The position numbers were made by a program, and so were the translations under genes. From Bacteroidales bacterium (GTDB taxonomy: Bacteria; Bacteroidota; Bacteroidia; Bacteroidales; P3): a stretch of 54,363 nt of DNA. The notes below the pieces were generated by a model. That model was given only the letters and a program-made list of their open reading frames with translations, did no database searches and was not told the DNA's origin. Numbering within the stretch: the first letter of the stretch is position 1; the number at the start of each line of letters is the position of its first letter. Location of the stretch: positions 1 through 54,363 of the forward strand of contig JAKSMO010000009.1 of the NCBI GenBank assembly GCA_024400545.1. Direction: 5' to 3'. Below are positions 2,700-52,034 of this stretch, piece by piece.

Positions 2700-4277
2700 T
2701 TATTTCTCTTTCCAATATTGTACAACATCAAATACACCTGCTTTGGTGTATTCTTTAATATTCGAAATGGCTTGGCCATTCTTTAGTGATTCAAGATTCC
2801 GTTTAGCTTTATCACCTTCTTTATCACTCAATCCTAGGAACTTGTTTGTTGCCTTAGTATTGGCCATGTCGTTGATGGGAAGCAAGAATGCTGTTTCGCA
2901 TTCTTGTGAAAAATCAAAATTGCCTTGGTTATACTCAGCTATTCCCTGAGACAAAAGGAAAACGGACACACCATAAGAGCGAATCTTTCGCAGTAACACT
3001 TCAAGAATCTCTAGCGACTTCTTTTCTCTGAATAGGTCATGAGCCTCATCAATAACCAGCACATAGCGCATACTTCTATAACCTTCAACAACATTAGAAC
3101 TACCTAGATTGGTAAAAATGTTGAAAATGTAGTTGATAATCAGGAACACCGACGTAAAACGCACAGTACTATCTAAGTCGCCCGACAATGAAAGATAGTA
3201 GTTTTTATTCAAGAACTTGCCTGGGTCTTTTTCTGTATTTGAGAACAGTTCGTAATCGTTACTAAGGCGGTCAAATAACTCTGTTAAACTATCGCGTTTG
3301 TCACCCATCTTCTCAAAGACAATATCGCTAATCTGTTTCAAAGATGGAACTTGACCATTGCTTTGGATAAACGCCTCTTTTGTCGCGTCTTTCAACGTCT
3401 GCTGCTGGACTTTGCCAATATTTGAGTATTTGGCAATTATATCAACAAACTTATTGATACCTACAGATCGATTCTTCTCGTTGATTGTATCAATAAATGT
3501 GAGCGGATTTAGAGGGAACGGCTCTGTCGGTGCGTTTATGCACTTAGTTTGGGTAACCTCAAAGAAGTCCTTCATTTTCTCTTGATCCTCAACGCTGATG
3601 CCTTTGAAATCCAGAAACAAGAAATTAACCTGACCTTGAGTTCTTACAACCAATTGACGAAGAAATTCCTTAGCAAACTCTGTTTTACCAGAGCCCGACT
3701 TACCTGCGACTGCAATATGCTGGTTGTTATAGAGTGGTCCGTTAAGACAGAACTTAATTTCCTCCTTAGTCATCGGATTATATCCAATCTTTATTTCGAT
3801 AAGACCGCAAAATTCCGTTTTGTCAAGATGGAGATTGTTATTCTTTACAGCATCAAGAGATACTGGAGCATCTTCAATAGCGTCAATTCCTTTGCCCAAA
3901 TACTCTATCAGGAAGTCGAGAAAAGTATATTGGGGGTTACTCTTAAAAAGGTAGTCCAATCGCTCCAATCCGTCATCAATATGAAGTTTTATATACTTGG
4001 GTATATAATCATCATTTTTGCTAATTCCATAGTGTTGGCAAATTAAAGCTACATAATAGTCTCTCATGTCAGCTTCGAACAACACATTTTCTTTATATTC
4101 CTTACCTTGTGAATCGTATTTATTAAAATCTTGTGGAACGAATTTCCTTCCTAATGACAAAGAAAAGCCCAATGCAATTCTCGCAATAACATTCTCGCGA
4201 GGAATTGTAGGCAATTTTTTCGTCAACTCAGATACAACCTCCTTGTTGGCCTTCGATGTTGTAATATTAATTTGCAT
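2700..4277 (-). CDS. dndE: DndE fused to a HerA/FtsK-like ATPase
   Basis: The first roughly 125 of 525 residues match DndE, the small protein of DNA phosphorothioation: LPTIPRENVIARIALGFSLS corresponds to the conserved helix of DndE, followed by the late motif KLHIDDGLERL. DndE is usually a stand-alone protein of about 110-130 residues. Here it runs directly into a P-loop ATPase with Walker A AGKSGSGKTEFAKE (about residue 192) and Walker B VLVIDEAHDLF (about residue 406), as in HerA/FtsK DNA-pumping ATPases. I used the ATG at 4277, because it begins MQINITTSKANKEV like DndE and overlaps dndD by 11 nt. The longer frame from 4328 only adds residues lying inside dndD. Its likely role is DNA binding or translocation during sulfur insertion. 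Confidence 0.85.
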   Translation of the reverse strand: MQINITTSKANKEVVSELTKKLPTIPRENVIARIALGFSLSLGRKFVPQDFNKYDSQGKEYKENVLFEADMRDYYVALICQHYGISKNDDYIPKYIKLHIDDGLERLDYLFKSNPQYTFLDFLIEYLGKGIDAIEDAPVSLDAVKNNNLHLDKTEFCGLIEIKIGYNPMTKEEIKFCLNGPLYNNQHIAVAGKSGSGKTEFAKEFLRQLVVRTQGQVNFLFLDFKGISVEDQEKMKDFFEVTQTKCINAPTEPFPLNPLTFIDTINEKNRSVGINKFVDIIAKYSNIGKVQQQTLKDATKEAFIQSNGQVPSLKQISDIVFEKMGDKRDSLTELFDRLSNDYELFSNTEKDPGKFLNKNYYLSLSGDLDSTVRFTSVFLIINYIFNIFTNLGSSNVVEGYRSMRYVLVIDEAHDLFREKKSLEILEVLLRKIRSYGVSVFLLSQGIAEYNQGNFDFSQECETAFLLPINDMANTKATNKFLGLSDKEGDKAKRNLESLKNGQAISNIKEYTKAGVFDVVQYWKEK

Positions 4278-6393
4278 GGTTGTACTTCTTATAGGTTTCA
4301 AATAAGCTATCAGGTTCAACGCTCTCAAACGAAGAACCTTTTTCGGTATTCTTAATCAAATATGATTTGCTGACAATACTCTTAATGTACCCGTACTCAA
4401 CCTCAGTCAACTCTTTTTCAAGCAATGGGAACAATATTACCTGCTTGGATACCTGAGGATAAAATAATGTGAGAATATTGCGAGTATGTTGAACATCATA
4501 TTTCTGCATAGGGCTATCGATGAATACCGGGAATTTGATGTCCGTCTCATCAACCAAAGCACTCAGCAAGGCAGATGCGAACATCTGCTTTTCACCCATT
4601 GACAATTCTCCTTTATCAATCTTTTTACCATTAGAACTGTACAGATTGATGTCCACATCATCGCCCTTACTATTGATATCTACAACAACACGTGATACCA
4701 AATTTTTCTTATGAAGATAGCTTTGCAGTTTCTTCGTCAAACTTTCCTCTAGAGCCTTCTTCTTTTCTTCTTTAAAAACAAGTAAGAATTTCTGCAGTTT
4801 ATTGATAAGGCGGCCAGCCTCATTATCAACTGCCTTATTGTCTTCACCAACTTGAATCTTCTTGGAGAGTATTTCTTTGCGCTTCTTATTGGCAATAATT
4901 CTATCATTTGCCACTTCGCATTCTCTTTGAAGGATAGCAATCCGACCGACAATTTTATCTTTCTCTTCGTTCAATCTTTGCTGTTCATCTCGAAGTCTTG
5001 ATACATAGTCGCTCTCCTTATTTTTCTCAGCCTCCCTAATTCTTTTCTCAATTGAAAATATTTGACCTTTGCACTTTTCATATTGGGATTGTAATTTTTC
5101 AAATTCATCTTTTGTGCCTTTGATTTTGCTCACCAAAGTATTTAACTCGCCAACCTGAATGTCACTAAAGTCATGCAATACAGTAAAGTTATCGAACCTA
5201 TCTGCATTATCCACATTTGAGAAATGCTTTATGATAAGTTCCTTTATGGTAGCTTCATAGAAATTCCTAATTTGAATAGGAATTTGAACCTCATTTTCTA
5301 GACTGAACCTGGATTTTTCTGTATCCAATTCATCCAACAAAGCAACCGTCTTGGATTCAACTCCTTCTAATTGAACACTTGTTTGTTTGTACAACTTTTC
5401 TTCTTCAACTTGCTTTAGCAAGTCAGAAACAAGATTACCACTCAAACCCAAAGGGATGTACTTATATAGATCTTTTAAACCCTCACTAATTTTATCTCTT
5501 TGCTCAACTAGAGAATCTCTTTCGCCCAACAATTTTTGATACTCATCTTCTGACATTAAGTCACCTTCACGAACAAGCCTACCTGAAATCTCTGACAACT
5601 CATGTTCCTTTACCCCTTTAAGATCATCCTCGCGGCCTATTTCTTCTTGATTATTTAAAATAAGATTCTCATCATTTTTCAAATCTGCAATAATCTGATT
5701 AAATTCTTTCTGGTCGTCAAGATTTGCAGACTGCTTTCTATAGTCATCTTGTATTCTTTCGAGCTCGTTTTTCAGGTCATCATATTTTTGGATGCCAAGA
5801 ACCTGAGAATAGGCCTTACTCAATTCTCTTCTTTGTTCAGCCGTGTTAATTTGCGCAAAGGAAACAATTTTTTCAGCATCGAAGAAGAAGAATTTAGCAA
5901 TCTCTATAGGTAAGATATAGTCACGCACAAACATTTCTTCCTCTTTCGTTTTTTCTTCTTTTGTACCGCTGAACAAATCGTTCAGTCTGCCGTCGATAAA
6001 AATTTGCAACTCATCATCAGCCTGAGTCAACGCATTGTACGAGCGCTTTACTGTAATTTCAGTACAAGTGATATCAGGAATATCCACATCAGTAAATGTT
6101 ACAGCAACAGAAAATTCCGATTGGCCATTTTCCTCTGCCGTTTTATTCAGGCTTGTCCCTATATACTTGCCATAACCGCCATGCGAATTAATCTCCTTTT
6201 TGTACATATCATCCACATCGCCCATCTTCTGTCCATACAGACACCAAACAAGCGACATCAAAAAGGTTGTTTTACCGAAACCATTGTTACCACTAACAAT
6301 AACAATATTTCGGTCACCATCAGGAGTAAGATTGATGACATTCTTTCCGTTGTAGATACGGAAATTATTCAGTTCTATTTCCTTAATTATCAT
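4267..6393 (-). CDS. dndD: DndD, SMC/RecN-like ATPase of DNA phosphorothioation
   Basis: This 708-residue protein has Walker A SGNNGFGKTT at residues 34-43, a long central coiled coil (about 200-540, rich in E, K, L, Q) and a C-terminal ABC lobe with signature LSMGEKQMFASAL followed by Walker B FPVFIDSPM. This is the split-ATPase plan of SMC/Rad50/DndD proteins, at the usual DndD length. In known systems DndD is the ATPase that helps nick or open DNA so that DndC-bound sulfur can replace a non-bridging phosphate oxygen. The gene overlaps dndC by 4 nt (ATGA) and the DndE-ATPase gene by 11 nt, so the three are one translationally coupled unit. Confidence 0.93.
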   Translation of the reverse strand: MIIKEIELNNFRIYNGKNVINLTPDGDRNIVIVSGNNGFGKTTFLMSLVWCLYGQKMGDVDDMYKKEINSHGGYGKYIGTSLNKTAEENGQSEFSVAVTFTDVDIPDITCTEITVKRSYNALTQADDELQIFIDGRLNDLFSGTKEEKTKEEEMFVRDYILPIEIAKFFFFDAEKIVSFAQINTAEQRRELSKAYSQVLGIQKYDDLKNELERIQDDYRKQSANLDDQKEFNQIIADLKNDENLILNNQEEIGREDDLKGVKEHELSEISGRLVREGDLMSEDEYQKLLGERDSLVEQRDKISEGLKDLYKYIPLGLSGNLVSDLLKQVEEEKLYKQTSVQLEGVESKTVALLDELDTEKSRFSLENEVQIPIQIRNFYEATIKELIIKHFSNVDNADRFDNFTVLHDFSDIQVGELNTLVSKIKGTKDEFEKLQSQYEKCKGQIFSIEKRIREAEKNKESDYVSRLRDEQQRLNEEKDKIVGRIAILQRECEVANDRIIANKKRKEILSKKIQVGEDNKAVDNEAGRLINKLQKFLLVFKEEKKKALEESLTKKLQSYLHKKNLVSRVVVDINSKGDDVDINLYSSNGKKIDKGELSMGEKQMFASALLSALVDETDIKFPVFIDSPMQKYDVQHTRNILTLFYPQVSKQVILFPLLEKELTEVEYGYIKSIVSKSYLIKNTEKGSSFESVEPDSLFETYKKYNHAN

Positions 6394-7730
6394 TTTTTAG
6401 CCTCCTTTTCAACAAAGTCAACTAATCTTTGCTCAATTTCATTTTTCAGGCCTCTTCTTCTCTGCATCAACGACTTACTCTTTTGCAAGAGTAATAACTG
6501 AGAAATCAGTTCCCCCTCAGATGGGTCGTCCTTACAAATATCTCTTAAGATATCTGCTTCTAACTGTCTTTTCGAATTGGTGTCCATGGCTAATTCGCTT
6601 TTATATATAGAATTATATATTTCTGAGACTCGATTACCAAAATTAAAATCACGATACCAATTCACCTGTACCGCAATCAGTTCCTGGTCTGTAATCAATT
6701 TTATCTTAGGGTCATGTTTTTGAAGTTCATATTGGACTTGCAAAAGTCCTTTAAGCATCTCGGCACGATATTCAAAAGTATAAGGTCCCATTTGGTTGAC
6801 AGCCTCCCGGCCGTCTCTTCGATGAGGAAATCGATTTGAGATGATATTACGCTCACTGTCCAATTTTAGCCGAAAGTCATAAAGAGGTTGCATCCACTCT
6901 CGTCCGCTTTTAATTAATGAGCGCATTGACTTGTCATCCTTGACAACAGTGCAAGTCCAACACCCAAAACGGCTCTGTCCACATGAACCATGGCTTTTGT
7001 CTGTAACTACCGTAGGACATTCATAATCATCTGCACTTGCATCAAGATAGATATTAAATAGAATCTTATTGTCAAATCCCCAAGGAGAAGGCATAGCATT
7101 GATAATATACCAGACCTCTTCCAGCATTAAATCTTTGATAGGTGCATAGACATAAGTATTCTTTAGCAAAGTATGATGAGTCAAACGTTTGCCTCTGATT
7201 TCATGTTTCTGGATTGACCTAGCACGAGTTTGGCTCTCGGCCTTTCTTGTACCTATCAGAACTATAGCTTCACCATACTCATCAACTTGGTCAATGATGA
7301 ACTGAGCCGTTGGTTTAATTTTCATCTTCTCAGTACACCAACGGAAAGCAGTATTTGGTACTGGGTATCCCTTACCAATCACATTAACCCAAAATGAATC
7401 CTCTAATTTAGGGATTGTTTTTCGTACATAAACAGGCAAATCCTCATTTCTTGCACCTTCTGATATCTTATCCAATACTTCATCAACATAAGTTGCAATA
7501 ATAGGATTCTCAACAAGTGTGTCATTGCACACTACATATATCGGCCTTCTCAATTGAAATGGGGCCAAGACCTCATTTCTTATCTTCCTAAGAGCTAACC
7601 AAACCAGTGTCAATAGAGCTGTCGAGTCCTTACCTCCACTAAAACCAATAATCCATGGACGATTGGTTTCATCAGCATATAAGTACTGATCAACAATCTC
7701 ATCAATAATATAATCGATTCTCTTTGACAT
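6390..7730 (-). CDS. dndC: DndC, phosphorothioation sulfurtransferase (PAPS-reductase fold)
   Basis: The protein (446 residues) starts with a PP-loop, GFSGGKDST at residues 29-37, as in ATP pyrophosphatases and PAPS reductases. It continues with FRWCTEKMK near 130 and four cysteines at about 238, 250, 257 and 260, in the segment HGSCGQSRFGCWTCTVV, the typical DndC iron-sulfur ligand set. These features separate DndC from plain PAPS reductases. DndC adenylates the backbone phosphate or carries the sulfur in DNA phosphorothioation. The sulfur donor is normally DndA/IscS, and no cysteine desulfurase gene is present in the window, so a housekeeping desulfurase is presumably used. It is the first intact gene of the operon. 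Confidence 0.95.
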   Translation of the reverse strand: MSKRIDYIIDEIVDQYLYADETNRPWIIGFSGGKDSTALLTLVWLALRKIRNEVLAPFQLRRPIYVVCNDTLVENPIIATYVDEVLDKISEGARNEDLPVYVRKTIPKLEDSFWVNVIGKGYPVPNTAFRWCTEKMKIKPTAQFIIDQVDEYGEAIVLIGTRKAESQTRARSIQKHEIRGKRLTHHTLLKNTYVYAPIKDLMLEEVWYIINAMPSPWGFDNKILFNIYLDASADDYECPTVVTDKSHGSCGQSRFGCWTCTVVKDDKSMRSLIKSGREWMQPLYDFRLKLDSERNIISNRFPHRRDGREAVNQMGPYTFEYRAEMLKGLLQVQYELQKHDPKIKLITDQELIAVQVNWYRDFNFGNRVSEIYNSIYKSELAMDTNSKRQLEADILRDICKDDPSEGELISQLLLLQKSKSLMQRRRGLKNEIEQRLVDFVEKEAKK

Positions 7731-9204: not shown

Positions 9205-9363
9205 GCCCCCCAACAAGTCATCACCCTCGGTTACTCAAAGTACAGCCTTCCAGTCTGCCCCTAAAACCATATACCCCTAAACCCCAAAACCCATATACTC
9301 ATATACCCCTATACTCATATACCTTTGTAGATAGCTATCTGATTTTCATAAATCATCAAGATT

Positions 9364-9507
9364 TGGGTGCAGGATGGTGCAGGTTGTTCTATAACTTTCG
9401 TATATAGGGGGGAAAACATTCCCTATAGATAAATATCATTTATATAGGAGATGTTTTCCCCCTTATAGAAAAATGTTGTAAAAGTAGGTGCACCATCTTG
9501 CACCCCG
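9364..9507. repeat. MITE-like imperfect palindrome
   Basis: The two halves are diverged inverted copies over about 60 bp. The tips read GGGTGCAGGATGGTGCA on the left and, reverse-complemented, GGGTGCAAGATGGTGCA on the right. The core stem 9403-9419/9451-9467 is 17 bp with one G.T pair (GGGGGAAAACAT against ATGTTTTCCCCC), and an inner CCTATA/TATAGG stem closes the loop. There is no ORF and no obvious target-site duplication. A miniature inverted-repeat element or the gene for a hairpin RNA would both fit. Confidence 0.6.
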
Positions 9508-9611
9508 GGCGGAAATGGGAGTGGGGAATCATGGAATATCGGTTTTCTCACTCGAGAGCCTCTTTTCTTGCCAATTCCCAAAAAATAATCTTTTTTATCA
9601 CATTTTTTTCG

Positions 9612-9620
9612 TATATTTGC
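9612..9620 (+). promoter_or_regulatory. Promoter element for the structured leader and methyltransferase cassette
   Basis: TATATTTGC matches TAnnTTTGC exactly and is preceded by a T-rich tract. Start of transcription is expected near 9625, about 310 nt before the methyltransferase start codon. Confidence 0.65.
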
Positions 9621-9624
9621 AATT

Positions 9625-9935
9625 ATGAAACATCGGCAACAAGAGTTTGTTGTCAATTGAATAATAATGCATTGACTATTATTTGCGTTCGTCGGAATAG
9701 CGTCGGAAACTATCTTCGGAATAAGAACACAAAAATAGTGGTTAGGCACATTCTGTGAGGAATGGAGCCAATCCGCTCAATAAGAAGAGTCAATGTTCAT
9801 GCTTAAGGCATGGACATTTCTTATTGAGCGGTAAGGTTCCAATCCGACGCAGCCTTGACGAACGCATAAGAAGGTTCATGCCTTTTTTATGCGCAATCGT
9901 AAGTGGTAGATTGATGCGTCCAACAATCTACCGAT
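9625..9935 (+). ncRNA. Candidate structured leader or non-coding RNA upstream of the methyltransferase gene
   Basis: Several helices can form, read directly from the sequence: CAACAA/TTGTTG (9638-9653); GCGTTCGTC 9685-9693 with GACGAACGC 9857-9865; GCGTCGGA 9700-9707 with TCCGACGC 9843-9850; CATTC/GAATG within 9745-9769; a large hairpin with a 14-bp stem (9773-9786/9818-9831) extended by a further 10-bp helix; CGCATAA/TTATGCG (9863-9869/9887-9893); and GGTAGATTG/CAATCTACC (9905-9913/9924-9932), ending 3 nt before the start codon. The two long-range helices enclose the inner hairpins in nested order, as in a folded RNA. No match to a known RNA family is recognised. It could be a cis-regulatory leader, an independent RNA or DNA-level hairpins. 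Ends are approximate. Confidence 0.55.
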
Positions 9936-11129
9936 ATGGCAAACACTAATCTAACAAAGGCTAAGAACGCAAAGCAAGATGAATTCTATACTCAATATGA
10001 GGATATTGAAAAAGAGGTGAGAGCATACCTCGAATACAACCCCGACACATTTCGGGACAAGGTTGTGTTGCTACCATGCGACGACCCAGAATGGAGCAAC
10101 TTTACTAAGTTTTTCGCCCTTCATTTTGAGGATCTTGGGCTAAAAAAGCTAATCAGTACCAGCTATGCACCCGACAGCAAACAGTTGAAGATTGGCTCGC
10201 AACTTACACTATTTGAAAAAGAAAGTCCTCAATTTGACCCTACAAAAACCCAAATTAAAGGCAAGATTTTTGAACTTGACAGAGACATTGACGGTAATGG
10301 GCACATCGACATAGATGACTTGCAATGGCACTATCTTGAAGGTGACGGCGACTTCAAGAGCGAGGAAATAAAAGCACTGCGTGACGAGGCCGACATTATT
10401 GTTACAAATCCCCCATTTTCTTTATTTCGAGAGTTTTTGGCTTGGATACTTGAAGGTGACAAGAAATTTATAATCATTGGGAACATGAACTCTGTTACGT
10501 GTAAAGAGATATTTCCATTTTTCATGGACAACATTATTTGGTATGGTTGCTCTATAAGTAGTGGTGATAGAGAATTTGGTGTTCCTGATTGTTATCCAAT
10601 AGATGCTTCCGGATGGAGAATTGACGAAAATGGAAACAAATACATTCGAGTAAAGGGTGTAAGATGGTTCACAAACCTTGATCACGGCCGACGCCACCAA
10701 CCATTATCTTTGATGTCGATGAACGACAATTTGAAATTCAGTAAACATAAAGAACTAAAAGGGAAGAAATATCAAACGTATGACAATTTTAATGCAATTG
10801 ATGTTCCATTCACAGATGCCATTCCTAGCGATTATGACAAGCCAATGGGTGTTCCAATTTCCTTTTTAGACAAGTATTGTCCCGAGCAATTTGAAATACT
10901 TGGACTGTCTCAAATAGGTTGTCATGACAAATTGCCTGACATAAAAAAATATAATGATTATAAGGAGATGCGATGCTCTGATAATCAACCGACTGGTTCT
11001 TCTGGAGGAAAAACAAATGAAAATGCAGTGCTACCAGGAAAAGGATCAAAAAAAACTTATTATCTTGGATCTTCTGGAGAGATTGTTCATTCTGAATATA
11101 AAAGAATATTTATTCGTAAAAAACAATAA
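9936..11129 (+). CDS. EcoRI-family adenine-specific DNA methyltransferase
   Basis: The 397-residue protein opens [20 protein letters not shown] and continues with the [12 protein letters not shown] segment, both typical of EcoRI-type N6-adenine methyltransferases. The catalytic motif IV is NPPF at about residues 158-161 ([15 protein letters not shown]). It would modify a short palindrome using S-adenosylmethionine, but specificity cannot be read from sequence. The next gene (DUF262-HNH) begins two bases after its stop, so they form a probable operon under the promoter at 9612. A hairpin ends three bases before the ATG and could hide the ribosome-binding region. More AT-rich than the core genes to the right. 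Confidence 0.9.
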
Positions 11130-11131
11130 AC

Positions 11132-12292
11132 ATGGAAGCAAAATTACAACAATTCACAATCAAAGAGATTTGCGAAGGTTTTGTGTACAATGAGTTAGAA
11201 GGCAAAGGCCTTTATGGCTTAAATGGGAAACTAACCATCCAACCCGAATACCAACGCAACTACATTTATGCTGATGGGAAAAGAGACAAAGCTGTTATAA
11301 AATCCATTTTAAAAGGTTATCCTATTGGCTTAATTTATTTCAACGAACTGGAAGATGGAAGATACGAAGTACTTGATGGTCAGCAAAGAATCACTTCAAT
11401 CGGTAGGTTTATGACCAACAAACTTGACATTTCCGATGATGACGGAAATATGAAAAGCATCAATGGCCTAGCCGAAGACAAGAAACTGTTGATTGAAAAT
11501 ACGTCTTTACTAGTTTATATCTGCAAAGGGACTGAATCTGAGATAAAAGAATGGTTTCAGACAATCAATATTTCTGGCATTCCTCTTAACGAGCAAGAAA
11601 TGCTCAATGCCATTTACTCTGGTCCATTTGTAACACTTGCAAAAGCAGAATTTTCGAACTCTAACAATGCGAATTTGCAGAAATGGAAGTCCTACATATC
11701 TGGCGACGTAAAAAGACAGCAAATATTGCAAACTGCATTGGACTGGGTTAGCCATAGTGATATCAGCCAATATATGAGTCATCACAGACTTGACAATAAT
11801 ATCAGTGAGCTGAAAACCTATTTTTCGGCTGTAATCGATTGGGCATCATCATTATTTGACGAAATTTACCCCGAAATGCAAGGGCGTGAGTGGGCTAGAC
11901 TTTACGAATCATACCACAGCAATCCTTACGACCACACCGCACTATCTGAAAGAGTTGCGGAGCTGATGGAAGACCCTTGTGTGACCGACAAAAAAGGTGT
12001 TTTCGAATATGTTCTAGGTGGCGAGAGTGACAAAAAGTTATTGAATATTAGAATCTTTAATGATGTTGTCAAACGAACTGTTTATCAAAAGCAACAAGCA
12101 AATGCTGAAGCCAAAGGTGAATCTAACTGCCCCTACTGCACTCTTGAGGCTGGGGCTAATAAAGATAAAATCTGGCCTTTAAAGGATATGGATGCCGACC
12201 ATGTAACAGCATGGAGCAAAGGCGGTTCGACCGACATTGATAATTGCCAAATGCTATGTAAAACACACAATAGACTAAAAGGGAATAGATAA
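11132..12292 (+). CDS. DUF262 (GmrSD/ParB-like) plus HNH nuclease
   Basis: The N-terminal half is a DUF262 domain: a conserved [19 protein letters not shown] segment and [14 protein letters not shown], the DGQQR nucleotide-interacting motif shared with GmrS and ParB-like proteins. The C-terminal 50 residues are an HNH nuclease with two zinc-type Cys pairs: CPYC, then [12 protein letters not shown], and [10 protein letters not shown]. The total of 386 residues is shorter than fused GmrSD enzymes (about 600). Downstream of a methyltransferase it is the probable restriction partner or an NTP-gated nuclease of a defence cassette. DUF262-HNH proteins are known to cut modified DNA (GmrSD) or to act in other anti-phage systems, so whether methylation protects or licenses cleavage is open. 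Confidence 0.88.
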
Positions 12293-51918: not shown

Positions 51919-51927
51919 TACTTTTGC
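51919..51927 (+). promoter_or_regulatory. Promoter element of the SRP RNA gene
   Basis: TACTTTTGC fits TAnnTTTGC and lies 5 bp before the first base of the folded SRP RNA, which calibrates start-site spacing in this window. Confidence 0.75.
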
Positions 51928-51931
51928 AATT

Positions 51932-52027
51932 GGGTAAGTCTTATACGACCAGCTCCCATTGAATCCCCCAGGGTAGGAATACAGCAAGGGTGTTTGGTTG
52001 TAGCGGTGCGATATAAATAGCTTACCC
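51932..52027 (+). ncRNA. ffs: Signal recognition particle RNA (small bacterial 4.5S type)
   Basis: The ends GGGTAAG (51932-51938) and CTTACCC (52021-52027) pair perfectly and are followed by a run of seven Ts. The apical part contains CCCAGGGTAGGAATACAGCA, matching the conserved Ffh-binding loops (GGAA-type tetraloop region and AGCA asymmetric loop) of bacterial SRP RNA. Length of about 96 nt is normal. It guides Ffh-dependent targeting of membrane proteins. Confidence 0.9.
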
Positions 52028-52034
52028 TTTTTTT
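52021..52034 (+). terminator. Terminator of the SRP RNA
   Basis: The 3' strand of the closing helix is followed directly by TTTTTTT, so the terminal stem itself serves as the intrinsic terminator. Confidence 0.7.

Follow-up and report, generated by a model that had tools for sequence, protein, structure and literature searches.

The 5' end of the restriction-modification transcript analyzed here is probably a cis-acting RNA switch, and its core is a member of a Bacteroidales family of RNAs of about 220 nt. The window, which is the whole analyzed stretch of 54,363 nucleotides from a Bacteroidales bacterium, carries this leader directly upstream of a methyltransferase gene. The unrelated genes behind the leaders of this family, the fixed distance to the ATG, the intrinsic terminator and the covarying alternative pairings together point to a cis-acting switch. 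A cis-regulator was among the functions proposed in an initial annotation of the sequence, and it is favored by the covariation, by the position directly before start codons and by the competing pairings. An RNA leader common to unrelated restriction-modification systems, helicases and surface-modifying enzymes would mean a shared control of phage barriers at the RNA level in a major gut order, and, should it be a riboswitch, a new ligand class and a readout of the condition that arms bacterial defenses.

RESULTS

The leader and its cassette

The minimum free energy (MFE) of positions 9625 to 9935 (311 nt) was −117.8 kcal/mol, compared to a mean of −72.8 kcal/mol with a standard deviation of 4.8 for 100 dinucleotide shuffles, none of which was as stable (z = −9.3). 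The two long-range pairs and the 14-bp stem with its extension were all found where the initial annotation had put them (Table 1), and so was the last stem, a 9-bp hairpin with its end 3 nt upstream of the ATG at position 9936. The 5' strand, alpha, is the most conserved block and has two alternative partners, one of which is contested by the stem preceding the ATG. Within the element there is also a terminator-like hairpin. Short hairpins akin to the 5' hairpin of the window were seen by eye ahead of many cores of the relatives. In the window, a short reading frame is located upstream of the core at 9625 to 9660.

Table 1. Features of the leader and of the cassette behind it, in positions of the window
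Feature	Position	Strand	Evidence
Probable −7 promoter box TATATTTG for the leader transcript	9612..9619	+	Sequence; Bacteroidetes-type motif
5' hairpin, start of the predicted transcript	9635..9654	+	MFE structure
Alpha, conserved 5' switch strand	9669..9687	+	Nearly invariant block; partner is beta or gamma
Core of the RNA family	9669..9891	+	Model R1, 225 positions; 238.5 bits
P1, 5' strand GCGTTCGTC	9685..9693	+	Helix 1: 96.3% of cells paired; double changes in 10/10 pairs
P1, 3' strand GACGAACGC	9857..9865	+	Complementary to 9685-9693; covariation
P2, 5' strand GCGTCGGA	9700..9707	+	Helix 2: 94.3% paired; double changes in 7/9 pairs
P2, 3' strand TCCGACGC	9843..9850	+	Complementary to 9700-9707; covariation
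Beta, first partner of alpha	9729..9747	+	Duplex −14.4 kcal/mol; swap z −5.9, 52 clusters
P4 hairpin	9773..9831	+	14-bp stem 9773-9786/9818-9831 plus apical extension; MFE; covariation helices 5-9
P4, 3' strand, candidate antiterminator	9806..9821	+	Partner 9869-9883; duplex −18.5 kcal/mol; swap z −12.9
Intrinsic-terminator-like hairpin with T run	9868..9888	+	Helix 10: 89.8% paired; double changes in 6/7 pairs
Gamma, second alpha partner; also 5' arm of start-codon hairpin	9898..9917	+	Alpha:gamma duplex −20.7 kcal/mol; swap z −4.6
Gamma:delta start-codon hairpin, 9 bp	9905..9932	+	9905-9913/9924-9932; swap z −18.0; hairpin census
EcoRI-type adenine methyltransferase, 397 aa	9936..11129	+	PF13651 EcoRI_methylase, E 1.7e-125
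GmrSD_N (formerly DUF262) + HNH protein, 386 aa, probable nuclease	11132..12292	+	PF03235 + PF01844; PADLOC REase_II

The methyltransferase/DUF262-HNH cassette that had been recognized behind the leader was recovered with the Pfam families listed in Table 1. We take the TATATTTG stretch upstream of the leader to be a Bacteroidetes-type −7 box; among 174 relatives, 139 had a TANNTTTG promoter box at a distance of 15 to 160 nt upstream of the core, compared to 248 of 3,480 shuffles. Upstream of this promoter is a strong inverted repeat (9360 to 9510), the 9402 to 9468 hairpin of which attracts chance miRNA matches. Directly to the left of the cassette, genes of the Dnd phosphorothioation type occupy 2700 to 7730 on the minus strand, encoding DndC, an ATPase resembling DndD/PbeC and a fusion of a DndE domain with a HerA/DndH-like ATPase. 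To the right, between 12661 and 15298, a frame for an MBOAT-like O-acyltransferase and an SGNH-like frame were identified by eye, and a small signal recognition particle (SRP) RNA of the Bacteroidales type (RF04183), which assigns the window to a genome of this order, is at 51925 to 52031.

Covariation of the core

The core was compared in 74 sequences (72 of them distinct, and five also in the seed of the covariance model R1, which was built from six sequences). Standard pairs made up 89.7% of the cells and double changes occurred in 55 of the 58 pairs, with the rows fitted to R1, so that the percentages are biased toward the model structure. The covariation score was 0.570, compared to 0.197 for shuffled data (none of 500 reached the real value) and to 0.047 to 0.084 when the partners were slid, and this excess is not explained by the slid controls or by the number of pair types. 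Compensatory changes keep both long-range stems, P1 and P2, in the relatives. As the comparison showed, the conserved core comprises P1, P2, P4 and the terminator hairpin, and its joining segments are A-rich and conserved. The stability of the fold and these double changes bear out the folded RNA of the initial annotation, which had made its reading depend on covariation and on conservation in homologous loci; the pairings are conserved there and covary.

Distribution of the family

When 190 genomes from the family of the window were searched with the element by blastn, near-full-length leaders were found three more times, in two genomes, together with some partial ones; beyond four leaders and a few partial ones, the matches were mostly to a generic promoter region. 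R1 yielded matches at an E value of 0.01 or better in 70 of these 190 genomes, some of them weak only. A total of 86 strong matches were taken with their flanks, which together with the window gave 87 loci, each with one full-length R1 match; the window had an additional antisense match that results from its palindromes. Across the order, 23 of 393 genomes had a match with an E value of at most 0.001 under stricter filters, and nine families were represented in addition to that of the window. Across the phylum, the sole match under stricter filters among 296 genomes was the genome of the window itself.

A pattern composed of the 5' block and GNAAAC retrieved at least 118 stretches from named GTDB genomes. 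Among the 80 of these listed, 79 carried Bacteroidales, Bacteroidia or member-family names and one was labeled Chloroflexi. R1 confirmed 78 of the 80 pattern loci listed, 75 as a whole and 3 truncated by the end of the locus, but neither the one labeled Chloroflexi nor L226. As the pattern draws on little of the model, this confirmation by R1 is an independent check. No confirmed copy was outside the Bacteroidales among the phylum-wide genomes and the listed GTDB pattern loci. Three patterns had zero exact matches in a viral contig collection, and blastn zero matches in plasmid and phage records, both searches being such that diverged copies would escape. A short pattern, the 5' block with one mismatch, hit 38 of the 393 order genomes and was discarded, as the reversed control was at least as frequent among the matches listed.

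The initial annotation had called such a structure unusual for a restriction-modification leader. This holds against what was searchable, but the leader is common within the Bacteroidales and is therefore not peculiar to this one cassette. Matches of at least 700 bp to the EcoRI-type methyltransferase in the family genomes had an R1 match directly upstream in 48 of 89 cases and none in 41. A second scan of 18 R1-negative EcoRI-type loci yielded six clear leaders, one weak one and five of a diverged sister type, with none recognized in the others, so that the 48 cases counted among the 89 are a minimum. The sister leader (L315, L316, L323, L325 and L337), missed by R1, is also located ahead of EcoRI-type methyltransferase genes; its 5' block is AGCGTTYTGC/AGCGTTTGCTATTTATTCGGCAC and its layout is that of the family, including the P4/terminator mimicry and the start-codon hairpin. 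Other strong hairpins, unrelated in appearance, are upstream of the EcoRI-type methyltransferase genes of L324 and L340.

Genes behind the leader

A reading frame of at least 100 aa began within 180 nt in 78 of the 87 family loci and in 9 there was none; 69 of these first genes were scanned as an alignment. Pfam families, which overlap within proteins in this tally, were EcoRI_methylase (44), Eco57I (8), N6_Mtase (7), C5 (6), Acyl_transf_3 (3), ResIII (3), D12 (2, L034 and L160), Type ISP (2) and others found once. By our own tally, at least 61 of the 69 are restriction-modification proteins. Left out of the alignment were the duplicates L038 and L133 as well as L145, L151, L157, L167, L172, L175 and L177; in a separate scan of L145, L151, L157, L167, L172 and L177, a hexapeptide transferase was found for L172, a GDSL hydrolase for L157 and no family for the other four. 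From the 75 loci of the pattern set, 66 first genes were scanned, with 48 EcoRI_methylase proteins, two each for N6_N4_Mtase, glycosyltransferase, DUF4268 and sulfatase, and single cases of HsdM, C5, Acyl_transf_3 and Type III; a Type III methyltransferase gene is behind the copy of Bacteroides rodentium JCM 16496 (L212). Further, one of the two DUF4268 genes was scanned with PADLOC and assigned to PDC-S11. Nine further loci from the order contributed MmeI, a Tsp45I nuclease, a ResIII-HNH helicase, an SNF2 helicase, SPFH, GDSL and N6_N4 proteins. All these gene samples lean toward close relatives, and some species occur in both the family set and the pattern set.

Several different genes may be preceded by the leader in one genome. 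G008 contains three copies ahead of three different methyltransferases, namely a D12 methyltransferase operon, a C5/Eco57I-like fusion that is followed by another gene, and a C5 methyltransferase (L122). By their predicted products, the regulated genes appear to be mostly phage barriers, that is, restriction-modification, helicases and surface modification.

Some other genes were also observed at these positions. Large proteins of 770 to 837 aa are encoded behind the leader in L236, L242, L258, L220, L169, L170 and L197; those of L236, L258, L220 and L169 had no Pfam or PADLOC match, those of L236, L258 and L220 also no NCBIfam or PDB-sequence match, and it is possible that the large proteins are new restriction or defense enzymes. 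In genome G501, leader-like RNAs (L347 and L349) are followed by small helix-turn-helix proteins of 68 and 76 aa. Leader-like RNAs are also located ahead of subtilase-dockerin genes in L037 and L363 and probably in L038, the core of which is identical to that of L037.

The hairpin at the start codon

The hairpin census covered 181 loci, partly near-duplicates, from the family (87), the order (19) and the pattern scan (75). A contiguous stem of at least 8 bp that ended 0 to 7 nt before an ATG was present in 152 of the 181 loci, and one of at least 10 bp beside an ATG in 132. In two sets of control stretches, taken further downstream, the corresponding counts were 12 of 167 and 13 of 161 for 8 bp and 3 of 167 and 1 of 161 for 10 bp. 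A more permissive hairpin finder had been dropped in favor of contiguous stems with controls, because it was positive for 170 of the 181 real loci but also for 126 of 158 control stretches. Judged by eye, the two arms of the hairpin were altered together into a different sequence in L192 and L253. The remaining 29 of 181 loci had no 8-bp hairpin by the ATG for various causes, which were contig edges, imperfect stems or the lack of such a gene; no hairpin-abutted gene at all was found in, for example, L036, L037, L038, L118, L151, L167, L177 and L203. This indicates that some copies may act otherwise, and those without a start-codon hairpin might function by termination alone or in trans.

Competing pairings

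In a swap test, the strand of each cluster representative was paired with its own partner strand and with the partner strands of other clusters (52 clusters, 20 draws). The own partner was better for P1/P2 (z = −20.5), for P3 (z = −12.1) and for the four pairings with swap z values in Table 1, and four unrelated region pairs used as controls gave z values of −1.3, −1.0, −0.9 and 0.0. An earlier, smaller test with 39 and 30 representatives had resulted in the same ranking with a weaker alpha:gamma (z = −2.7; 74 of 20,000 permutations). Because the own partners are preferred, the test supports two partners each for alpha and for gamma, as well as a strand that competes for the terminator. Three sets of mutually exclusive pairings are thus maintained by covariation: alpha pairs with either beta or gamma, gamma with either alpha or delta, and the 3' strand of P4 either within its own hairpin or with the terminator. 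P3 would make a pseudoknot with P2.

The 52 representatives were also folded at four transcript lengths, with nested structures only and a pairing counted at five or more expected pairs. Alpha:beta was present at 115 nt in 50 of 52, P1/P2 at the terminator in 48 of 52, and alpha:gamma before delta had been made in 50 of 52. Full-length leaders contained gamma:delta in 49 of 52 and alpha:gamma in 3 of 52 with this nested folding. The end states of the window are balanced, with −111.3 kcal/mol for alpha:gamma and −111.0 and −109.4 kcal/mol for gamma:delta, a gap of about 2 kcal/mol that is within the error of the method.

DISCUSSION

A model for the switch

These pairings can be combined into a possible order of events. 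Alpha:beta would form first in transcription, and the formation of P1/P2 would then free alpha. Alpha may take gamma before delta exists, leaving the start region open, and gamma:delta, the predicted stable end state in most relatives, would close the start codon. Pairing of the 3' strand of P4 with the terminator would allow the polymerase to read through, and transcription would otherwise stop near position 9888. A common cellular signal that acts on the pseudoknotted core may set the output of the downstream defense or surface gene. A broader interpretation, which we offer tentatively, is that an undescribed class of Bacteroidales RNA switches responds to one common signal, either of infection or of the state of the cell, and in this way coordinates a barrier regulon of repeatedly captured defense genes. 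This regulon may comprise Type I, II, IIG, III and ISP restriction-modification systems, helicase-nucleases and enzymes that modify surface glycans, an extent that is equally tentative.

Alternative explanations

What sets the switch may be considered in two ways. The cis-acting switch could be a riboswitch in the strict sense, with the pseudoknotted core directly binding a small metabolite or ion, a narrower reading that is conceivable but falls short of even odds. Among the features by which riboswitches are recognized, a conserved and covarying structured core located ahead of genes was found, and mutually exclusive structures that may affect the terminator or the start codon are indicated by comparison and calculation only. 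The core is separate from an expression platform with two levels, one core is common to many unrelated genes within a genome, the joining segments are of the A-rich and conserved kind, and the patchy presence with swapped cargo suggests an order-wide signal; but the regulated genes are without a common metabolite or pathway and no known riboswitch model matched. Alternatively, a host or phage protein or small RNA may set the switch in trans, for instance, a general antitermination or RNA-binding factor. Such a factor would suit the intrinsic terminator, for which another strand competes, and the regulated genes, which are mostly phage barriers, but the covarying stems leave little constant single-stranded sequence beyond short A-rich joints, and we regard this explanation as rather doubtful. 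That the leader merely holds the expression of a dangerous or foreign gene low and steady, without sensing, agrees with the folding of 49 of the 52 representatives, in which the start-codon hairpin is the stable end state. A simple hairpin would be sufficient for this purpose, however, and alpha:beta, alpha:gamma and the exchange at the terminator level are hard to explain without switching, so that passive insulation is unlikely.

Readings other than cis regulation fared worse. The initial annotation had also suggested an antitoxin-like RNA, or else a guide or effector RNA that works together with the DUF262-HNH protein. This protein shares the cassette with the leader, and the few copies without a hairpin-abutted gene could act in trans, but no evidence pointed to an antitoxin-like RNA. 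Against this, close relatives precede genes without an HNH or DUF262 partner, such as C5 and D12 methyltransferases, Type ISP enzymes, acyltransferases and glycosyltransferases, and also sulfatase-like genes; C5, Eco57I-like and EcoRI-type methyltransferases are all first genes within one leader cluster of 19 members, and the hairpin at the start codon is a feature that acts in cis. Because related leaders carry varying cargo, a role as guide or effector RNA of the HNH protein was rejected, and the whole interpretation is very improbable. The palindromes might also mimic an RNA structure and belong to a DNA element, namely a recombination or attachment site or a mobile repeat, as similar leaders with different cargo and a patchy distribution (70 of the 190 family genomes) would permit. 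Only one copy, apart from the antisense match, was present in each of the 87 loci, with about 4 to 5 kb downstream covered where the contig allowed, which indicates that no repeats flank the cargo there; the element keeps a fixed orientation and a fixed distance to the ATG, and the viral scans and the plasmid and phage records as searched gave zero matches. A DNA recombination site was rejected because of the covariation, the fixed orientation and the single copy per locus, and an integron-type cassette site because copies flanking each cassette are absent from these loci; a DNA element of any kind is highly unlikely. The leader is best regarded as a cis-acting switch.

Comparison with known systems

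At the curated gathering score, Rfam 15 assigned only tRNA and SRP RNA in the whole window and the loci of 40 relatives. At E values up to 10, only short hairpin families below threshold were found in 9400 to 10000 of the window, and only small-RNA and miRNA hairpin families below threshold in 8360 to 8730 of L034. The Bacteroidales RNA motifs in Rfam 15 include Bacteroidales-1 and others (PMC2864571). Bacteroidales-1 and similar motifs come from the same bacterial order and are, as generally described, of comparable size, but no Rfam model reached the threshold on the leader. A full-text literature search that did not cover the 2017 set of "224 candidate structured RNAs" found no description of this leader family. 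In that 2017 paper, a D12-methyl RNA motif reportedly precedes genes for D12-type DNA methyltransferases. Going by this description alone, the motif resembles the leader in that two D12 genes, of L034 and L160, are behind the latter; it could be related to the leader family, and this is the main doubt concerning novelty.

An IscB/HEARO-type guide RNA has no counterpart here, as IscB was absent from the first-gene families of the relatives and the partner in the window is GmrSD_N plus HNH. Likewise, no reverse transcriptase family of a retron-like RNA was found in the 69 and 66 first genes or the two genes of the window.

Riboswitches with a terminator and platforms that sequester the start site, as they are generally known, share with the leader a conserved core capable of a pseudoknot, competing strands, an intrinsic terminator, a hairpin over the start codon and several genes per genome under one leader type. 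The leader differs in that its genes are restriction-modification, helicase and surface-modification genes and not a metabolic set, and in that it has both platforms in series. Four-strand attenuators, for instance, the trp leader as it is commonly described, exchange 1:2 and 3:4 for 2:3 as alpha:beta and gamma:delta would be exchanged for alpha:gamma. In contrast to trp-type attenuators, the leader has a large structured core between the exchanging strands and no conserved leader peptide was seen, stops being present in all three forward frames in 173 of 181 cores.

When and how strongly restriction-modification genes are expressed by their hosts is a long-standing question, for which the usual answer is control proteins specific to one system, and control proteins and antisense RNAs of these systems adjust the expression of methyltransferase and nuclease. 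Each of these regulators is specific to one system, whereas the leader is common to unrelated ones.
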